The translations under genes were made by a program, and so were the position numbers. Below, piece by piece: positions 49,810 through 50,960 of a stretch of DNA of 64,000 nucleotides (the first letter of the stretch is position 1; every line of letters begins with the position of its first letter). Source of the DNA: Hydrogenobacter hydrogenophilus (lineage in GTDB: Bacteria > Aquificota > Aquificia > Aquificales > Aquificaceae). The DNA lies in contig NZ_OBEN01000005.1 in NCBI RefSeq assembly GCF_900215655.1, positions 1 to 64,000 of the forward strand, written 5' to 3'. Under the pieces are notes generated by a model. The model made no database searches and was not told the origin of the DNA. It worked only from the letters and a program-made list of their open reading frames with translations.

Positions 49810-50241
49810 TTACTTGATCTCTATCTTTTTCTCCTTTGAAACCTCAGCTTTGGGAAGCCTTATTTCTAAAACACCATCTTTGAATTCTGCCTTTACTTCG
49901 TCAGTCTTTACTTCCGCTGGTAAGCTCAGTACCCTTTCAAACTTTCCATAAACTCTTTCTAACCTGTGAACCGTCTCTGTTTTCTCTTCTCGTTCCTCTT
50001 TTTTCTCACCTCTTATGTGTAGCATGTTATCCTTTATACTTACCTCAATGTTTTCCTTCTTTACACCCGGAAGCTCAGCTTTAACAACTATCTCCTTGTC
50101 CGTTTCGTACATCTCAACCGCAGGAGCAAAAGCTCTTTCTGTATCTTCTCCGGGAAAGAGCTCCTCAAGAAGTCTGTCAAACTCCCTTCTTATTCTTTCA
50201 AGTTCTGCAAAAGGACTCCAAAGCATAAGACCCCTTCTCAT
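49810..50241 (-). CDS. Small heat-shock protein Hsp20
   Basis: Alpha-crystallin-type holding chaperone, 143 residues. The N-terminal arm is MRRGLMLWSPFAELERIRRE. The crystallin domain runs from about 40 to 130 (VEMYETDKEIVVKAELPGVK, ENIEVSIKDNMLHIRGE) and ends with the oligomerisation tail VLEIRLPKAE. ATG 50241 is preferred over GTG 50250 because a GAGGTGAGG ribosome-binding site precedes it. A long, strongly structured leader lies upstream. Confidence 0.92.
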   Translation of the reverse strand: MRRGLMLWSPFAELERIRREFDRLLEELFPGEDTERAFAPAVEMYETDKEIVVKAELPGVKKENIEVSIKDNMLHIRGEKKEEREEKTETVHRLERVYGKFERVLSLPAEVKTDEVKAEFKDGVLEIRLPKAEVSKEKKIEIK

Positions 50242-50260
50242 GGCCCTCACCTCACTATCT

Positions 50261-50346
50261 AAGCACCTGTCGGTGCTTAGGCTGGGGTATTTCTATACCG
50301 CCTTTTAAAGCTGTCCCTTCCCCAGCAGGCGGTTTTGGGACAGCCT
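50261..50346 (-). promoter_or_regulatory. Structured 5' leader of hsp20 (possible RNA switch or small RNA)
   Basis: On the minus strand six segments occur in the order 1-2-3-4-5-6 where 1 (GCTGTCCC, 50344-50337) pairs with 4 (GGGACAGC, 50317-50310), 2 (ACCGCC, 50333-50328) with 5 (GGCGGT, 50302-50297) and 3 (GCTGGGG, 50326-50320) with 6 (CCCCAGC, 50287-50281). All three pairings cross each other. A separate hairpin AAGCACC-GACA-GGTGCTT (50278-50261) follows, 20 bases before the hsp20 start. I do not match it to a known riboswitch or ribozyme class. Confidence 0.6.
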
Positions 50347-50384
50347 ACAGTTATAAAATTTATATGAAAGTCTTAAAGTGTCAA
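50345..50384 (-). promoter_or_regulatory. Promoter region of hsp20
   Basis: TTGACA (50384-50379) at the pncA stop, an AT-rich -10 region containing TATAAA, then ATAACTGTAG (50354-50345) exactly 24 bp after the hexamer. The same arrangement occurs before sfsA. Confidence 0.6.
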
Positions 50385-50960
50385 GTCCCCAAAGGCTACC
50401 ACCACCGCACCTGAGTTCATCATTTCCTCTATGGCTCTGTCTGTATCTCCTGCATTTACATCTACACCTTTTGTAGCATCAATAAGTAGAAAAACTTCAT
50501 AACCTAAGTTAAGACCACCTATTACCGTATTCTTTACGCAGTAATCGGTGGCAACCCCTCCTACAAAAAGCCTTCTTATACCTCTCTCTTTTAACAAACT
50601 GTCCAACAGAGTTCCCTGAAACCCAGAATAAGCGTCAAAATCCCTACTTGTGCCTTTAGATATGATGAATTTATTGTCCTTTGGTATTATCAGATCCTTA
50701 TGGAACTGAGCACCTTCTGTTCCCTGAACGCAGTGAGGTGGCCATATCCCACCATGTCCTTTAAAGGATATGTGATCCGGAGGATGCCAATCTCTGGTAA
50801 AGTAAACGGGAAGGGATCTTGATGAAAAGGCTTCTATGTATGCATTTAGCTGTGGTACTATCTTATCTGCATCCGGCACAGGCAGAGCTCCCCAAGGCAT
50901 AAAGTCATTTTGCATATCTACCACTATCAGCGCATCCTTGTTTGTTAGATTTAGCCTCAT
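50373..50960 (-). CDS. pncA: Nicotinamidase
   Basis: Hydrolyses nicotinamide to nicotinate for NAD salvage. 195 residues of the isochorismatase-like fold. The catalytic triad is visible: Asp in LIVVDMQNDFMPWGALPV, Lys in IISKGTSRDFDAYSGF and Cys in VGGVATDYCVKNTVIGG. Metal-binding residues are in TRDWHPPDHISFKGHGG. It follows sfsA by 13 bp on the same strand. Confidence 0.93.
   Translation of the reverse strand: MRLNLTNKDALIVVDMQNDFMPWGALPVPDADKIVPQLNAYIEAFSSRSLPVYFTRDWHPPDHISFKGHGGIWPPHCVQGTEGAQFHKDLIIPKDNKFIISKGTSRDFDAYSGFQGTLLDSLLKERGIRRLFVGGVATDYCVKNTVIGGLNLGYEVFLLIDATKGVDVNAGDTDRAIEEMMNSGAVVVAFGDLTL

Follow-up and report, generated by a model that had tools for sequence, protein, structure and literature searches.

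In the window, a stretch of 64,000 nucleotides from Hydrogenobacter hydrogenophilus (contig NZ_OBEN01000005.1, positions 1 to 64,000), the minus strand carries an isochorismatase/nicotinamidase-like gene followed by the small heat-shock gene hsp20. Between them lies a leader that forms three mutually crossing helices (P1 to P3) and a hairpin (P4). We found that this leader belongs to an RNA family widespread in Aquificota and linked to IS607/TnpB transposons, and we consider it probable that the hsp20 copy is a solo copy of the transposon's right-end RNA module, now a folded 5' leader in cis. The parts of the locus are as follows.

50373-50960, minus strand: isochorismatase/nicotinamidase-like gene, upstream of and co-directional with hsp20
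50350-50355, minus strand: possible -10 hexamer TATAAC just upstream of P1, a candidate at hsp20 that rests on family-level enrichment
50337-50346, minus strand: P1 5' strand, AGGCTGTCCC; variable sequence, covarying, 7/7 counted pairs changing on both sides
50333-50336, minus strand: J1, AAAA, A-rich joiner from P1 to P2; two A invariant in the family
50328-50332, minus strand: P2 5' strand, CCGCC (GCGCC in a subset); 100% paired, outer pair CG in 68 and GC in 17
50320-50326, minus strand: P3 5' strand, GCTGGGG; 6/7 pairs change on both sides
50308-50317, minus strand: P1 3' strand, GGGACAGCTT, pairing with the P1 5' strand
50303-50307, minus strand: A-rich linker preceding the P2 3' strand
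50298-50302, minus strand: P2 3' strand, GGCGG, from the family alignment
50288-50297, minus strand: J2, TATAGAAATA, conserved 10-nt joiner; consensus gATAnAAATA, 10 nt long in 49/52 copies
50281-50287, minus strand: P3 3' strand, CCCCAGC, from the family alignment
50259-50280, minus strand: P4 hairpin, 9 bp, adjoining P3; near-universal among copies, variable in sequence, compensated
50247-50253, minus strand: hsp20 Shine-Dalgarno (SD) sequence GAGGTGA, outside all four helices; aligns with the unoccupied site AAAGGAGGTGAG
50230-50249, minus strand: would-be guide segment TGAGGGCCATGAGAAGGGGT after the right-end (A)GG; 17/20 identity to the unoccupied allele beside AGGAGG
49810-50241, minus strand: hsp20, alpha-crystallin family, start taken as ATG 50241

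The three crossing pairings (1-4, 2-5 and 3-6, of 8, 6 and 7 bp) that the preliminary description had read from this leader are all present on the minus strand: in P1, GCTGTCCC (50344-50337) pairs with GGGACAGC (50317-50310), and P2 with its flanking letters joins (A)CCGCC(T) (50333-50327) to (A)GGCGG(T) (50303-50297). The hairpin placed after them is also there, yet it measures 9 bp and not 7, with strands CTAAGCACC/GGTGCTTAG at 50280-50272/50267-50259. Taken as a single sequence, this set of pairings is no better than chance: requiring 8, 6 and 7 Watson-Crick pairs, crossing and within 70 nt, yielded one set on the 128 kb of strand in the window and three in 384 kb of shuffled sequence, and a looser single-sequence descriptor gave many chance matches. 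Hence only a test at the level of the family counts.

In related Aquificales, BLAST searches seeded with the leader returned multiple core matches per genome. The consensus of 52 distinct copies reads P1(8)-aata-CCGCC-t-GCTGGGG-(0-4)-P1'-nnnaaaa-GGCGG-gatanaaata-CCCCAGC, and a variable P4 adjoins P3 across copies. Genomes were searched with a covariance model in which P1 alone was entered as base pairs; P2 and P3 entered the alignment as sequence and not as pairs. The model placed the ~65-nt core in 87 of 136 Aquificota genomes and in 23 of 30 genera, at 0 to 35 copies per genome, the window genome holding four. The alignment comprised 92 matches, 85 of them distinct; its cells were paired in 99.5% of cases, compared to 33-49% with slid partners, and the distinct copies showed 338 double-changed cells where shuffling gave 81 ± 11. 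Changes on both sides occurred in 14 of 19 pairs (P1 7/7, P2 1/5 with its other pairs invariant, P3 6/7), the outer pair of P2 being swapped from CG to GC in 17 distinct copies. Swapping P1 strands between members lowered the share of stems of at least 7 bp from 92% (native) to 3.5%, but the set used had been selected by a P1 requirement, and the double-change test is therefore the stronger one.

The search for covariation in Aquificae leaders that had been suggested as a check thus returned compensatory changes in all three crossing helices. The preliminary description had left open a compact multi-pseudoknot or competing folds; joint covariation of the helices speaks for the former, while the latter loses ground, the helices being conserved together rather than as exclusive alternatives and no alternative anti-fold being seen. 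The strand order 1-2-3-1'-2'-3' is that of a predicted ABCABC ("pseudotrefoil") fold, to which hairpin P4 is added. Pseudoknots of this kind form a topology class of genus 1 (PMC3390330), and the likeness lies in arc topology and topology class alone, with no claim of a relation in sequence. Searches of the window and of the tnpB loci against Rfam, at curated and permissive thresholds, matched no family, RAGATH-18 and known ribozymes included; phages and plasmids (by BLAST) and viral contigs (by exact pattern) gave no match to the element; and the family is not described in those parts of the main text of an Aquificales non-coding RNA survey (PMC4227106) that we consulted. The predicted knotted leader RNA is a previously uncatalogued family, absent from Rfam, as its unfamiliar class had hinted. 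In the genome with 35 copies (G012), copies L197, L199, L203, L204, L206 and L208 are near-identical in P1-P3 and differ in P4 and flanks, as if the 66-nt core alone had been copied or homogenised.

A tnpB-like open reading frame of ~560 aa reaches into the element at 18 or more loci, its stop codon lying within the element or shortly behind it. The linked protein carries the RuvC motifs GIDIN...IENL...DKDIAG, with D227, E290 and D359 invariant, and scores 54-70 bits against NCBIfam TIGR01766 (TnpB-related, cut-off 32). Pfam returned Cas12f1-like_TNB alone, below threshold; the best fold match of an AlphaFold model was AsCas12f (E 2e-10; mean predicted local distance difference test score 69.7, template-modelling scores low), and no zinc ribbon was seen in the protein. 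One complete element also encodes an IS607 TnpA, a serine recombinase with an N-terminal helix-turn-helix (L287:476-1066; NF033518, 222.8 bits, cut-off 110). In tnpB-bearing copies the left ends show AGGAGG|TTAAAAACAG or TTAACAATAG, varying slightly, and AGGAG(G) or a one-base variant occupies the position of the transposon-adjacent motif (TAM) at all readable left ends; at the right ends ACCAGG is followed by 5-15 nt and then a start codon. Both ends of these copies hold a GG dinucleotide, as expected from IS607 chemistry, which exchanges GG (PMC6188088), and most IS607 TnpBs that have been tested use AGGAG as their TAM (PMC11061315). At the solo hsp20 copy the right side alone can be placed. 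Because the TAM coincides with the SD sequence, insertions land between SD and start codon. Copies linked to a transposon carry an extra 5' hairpin before P1 that is missing from most solo copies. An origin of the RNA as a right-end, guide-RNA-type module of an IS607/TnpB transposon is well supported.

Among the closest known counterparts is the IS607 reRNA/omegaRNA (RAGATH-18-derived, ISFba1; PMC11061315), which is likewise a structured RNA at the tnpB 3' end with an AGGAG TAM at the left flank, a scaffold with pseudoknots and a guide taken from host sequence past the right end, the last being putative here. The present element differs in matching neither RAGATH-18 nor any other Rfam family, in its core of three mutually crossing helices (~65 nt, plus P4), in a TnpB of ~560 aa without zinc ribbon where the known one has ~390 aa, and in its dozens of solo copies serving as gene leaders. 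IS607-family transposons (PMC6188088) share the serine-recombinase TnpA, GG at both termini and tnpB in second place, whereas most copies here lack tnpA, many lack tnpB, and they lie exactly between SD and start codon. Other tnpB clades were also seen. In one (L295, L298) the right-end RNA is a GTCCC/GGGAC hairpin whose loop CCAGGTCA pairs with a downstream TGACCTGG, a predicted simple H-type rather than three-way fold; the covariance model found zero copies in G019, noted together with this clade. Another (L296, L297, L299) has an inverted repeat, GGCTGTTCTAAAAA...TTTTTAGAACAGCC, at its borders, an uncommon feature among IS607/IS605 elements. A draft genome (G085) holds 41 tnpB matches, many at contig ends, which represent a burst of elements.

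No tnpA or tnpB open reading frame lies between 50373 and 50241 in the window, where the hsp20 copy is a solo derivative and not an intact element. A relative without the element before hsp20 (L113) reads TTTAAAGGAGGTGAGTGCCATGAGAAGAGG where the window has P4-ATAGTGAGGTGAGGGCCATGAGAAGGGG; in this unoccupied site the sequence after AGGAGG agrees with the window's would-be guide at 17/20 positions. Two operon sites in G012 similarly align with element-free relatives reading AAGGAGG. No tnpB homologue (E<=1e-5) was found in the element-bearing genomes G012, G017, G005, G021, G014, G033, G076, G078, G080 and G081, and the window genome's tnpB is a 51-aa remnant alone. One copy of the RNA in that genome (G000:C10:39265-39514; L034, L261) has this N-terminal remnant before it and a type III CRISPR component-like gene after it, and reads as an internally deleted element. 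The htpX leader holds a single orthologous copy in each genome, and across nine genomes, of which seven lack tnpB, its P1 and P4 show compensated changes (in P1, for instance, TGCGGAC/GTCCGCA vs TGCAGGC/GCCTGCA), which argues for a host-cell role of solo copies independent of TnpB. At orthologous nrd and hsp20 loci (three to five genomes) changes in P1 and/or P4 are compensated as well.

The position of the element relative to genes is regular: a sense start codon lies 15-60 nt downstream of the matched stretch in 131 of 138 loci, with a median of 40 nt from the end of P3 to the ATG. Around 50 different genes, mostly housekeeping, follow it in the sense orientation. Judging from N-termini, mostly read without family-library comparison, we take them to include hsp20, acpP, trxB, mreB, htpX, hfq, hpf, rpsT, rplQ, rpmF, rpsM, rpsK, rpoA, infC, infB, tsf, ndk, nrd, ftsZ, ftsH, rho, metE, adk and an hslU-like gene. 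A hexamer resembling a -10 box, with its end 3-14 nt before P1, accompanies 32 of 103 solo copies, compared to 12-13 in control stretches and 11.6 ± 3.2 in shuffles; from this enrichment, part of the copies probably form the 5' end of the mRNA.

Using orthologues from G019 and relatives with an SD match of at least 6, we observed that this match is kept in 3 of 19 G012 genes with the element and in 8 of 9 without it (Fisher p = 4e-4), a hint that the leader may stand in for the SD. Solo copies would most likely serve today as folded 5' leaders that act in cis on translation and/or the stability of the 5' end, and a guide role in trans is conceivable where TnpB is present. The bolder proposal that the right-end RNA is a translation-initiation element, its pseudoknot taking over the function of the removed SD as a bacterial, SD-independent leader resembling an internal ribosome entry site, is tentative and rather doubtful; were it true, rpoA, rpsK, tsf and ndk of G012 would depend on a transposon-derived RNA, and these copies could not be lost.

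The RNA thermometer or ligand-responsive switch specific to heat-shock expression that the preliminary description had derived from the neighbourhood of hsp20 now looks very improbable. It would fit the compact fold and the proteostasis genes behind some copies (htpX, ftsH, hslU-like, besides hsp20 itself), but unrelated housekeeping genes with no common pathway stand behind most of them, the SD (50253-50247) lies outside P1-P4, and the crossing helices are jointly conserved, with neither terminator nor alternative anti-fold in sight. Small heat-shock thermometers such as ROSE and fourU occupy the same place in a small heat-shock leader; here, by contrast, the SD is free, the genes are many and unrelated, and a pseudoknot takes the place of a melting hairpin. 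Self-cleavage, trimming the leader or cutting operons between genes, is hardly credible: the size of this small multi-pseudoknot and the many copies between co-directional genes would suit a ribozyme, while no Rfam ribozyme matched, the strand orders of HDV, twister, pistol and hatchet are unlike 1-2-3-1'-2'-3', and the linkage to tnpB explains the element better.

Two further readings accept the transposon origin. Solo copies might be inert relics, functionless and persisting because insertion at the SD is tolerated, as recent spread of near-identical cores in G012 and copy numbers from 0 to 35 among relatives could suggest; this is quite improbable, since drift would destroy the pairing that is kept by compensation at single orthologous loci (htpX, nrd and hsp20). 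They might otherwise act as guide RNAs in trans, a TnpB from elsewhere in the cell using a guide over SD and start codon to cleave unoccupied alleles (homing) or, if inactive, to regulate the gene in the manner of TldR. The intact RuvC residues, the many genomes where intact tnpB and solo copies coexist, and the unoccupied hsp20 allele with its AGGAGG and matching guide all favour such a role, which we nonetheless consider unlikely because several element-bearing genomes, G012 with its 35 copies among them, have no tnpB homologue and the window genome retains just the remnant. TldR guide systems (TnpB-derived RNA-guided transcription factors; PMC13418256) also tie a TnpB-derived RNA to host-gene control. 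The present case differs from them in its intact RuvC residues and in solo leaders that are kept where no TnpB exists.

We therefore return to the solo right-end module acting in cis. In the intact element, the module closes the tnpB transcript on its 3' side and, to judge by anatomy, would serve as scaffold for the TnpB guide RNA, with host sequence downstream of the right end as guide. The transposon inserts directly 3' of AGGAGG, between SD and start codon, and the gene hit in this way acquires the RNA as its 5' leader. After an ancestral Hydrogenobacter insertion at hsp20, tnpA and tnpB would have been lost and P1-P4 kept; the remaining copy may act in cis by presenting the start site and/or protecting the 5' end, compensating for the displaced SD, and the host could then not easily lose it. 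Several points weigh against this account. Binding by TnpB and guided cleavage are deduced from element anatomy, and the cis role of solo copies from selection. No transposon left end can be recognised at the hsp20 copy, whose presumed derivation by loss of tnpA and tnpB rests on RNA homology and site comparison. The SD-loss signal comes from a single genome, G012, with hand-checked pairs; unpaired controls, automatically called genes of the same genomes, showed no significant SD difference (pooled p = 0.17), although these are too noisy as many automatic calls are probably false starts. Moreover, hsp20 in the window keeps a good SD, GAGGTGA, and compensation for a lost SD does not apply to this gene today.

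Should the account hold, dozens of essential genes across a phylum have as their 5' leader an RNA whose anatomy indicates that it evolved as the guide of a transposon nuclease, and selection maintains this RNA even in genomes that no longer have the nuclease. The known guide-RNA scaffolds would gain a family with a rare three-way crossing fold, and the Shine-Dalgarno sequence would stand out as the motif that a transposon family naturally targets. The family would also make it possible to test directly if RNA from a transposon can take over from a Shine-Dalgarno sequence.
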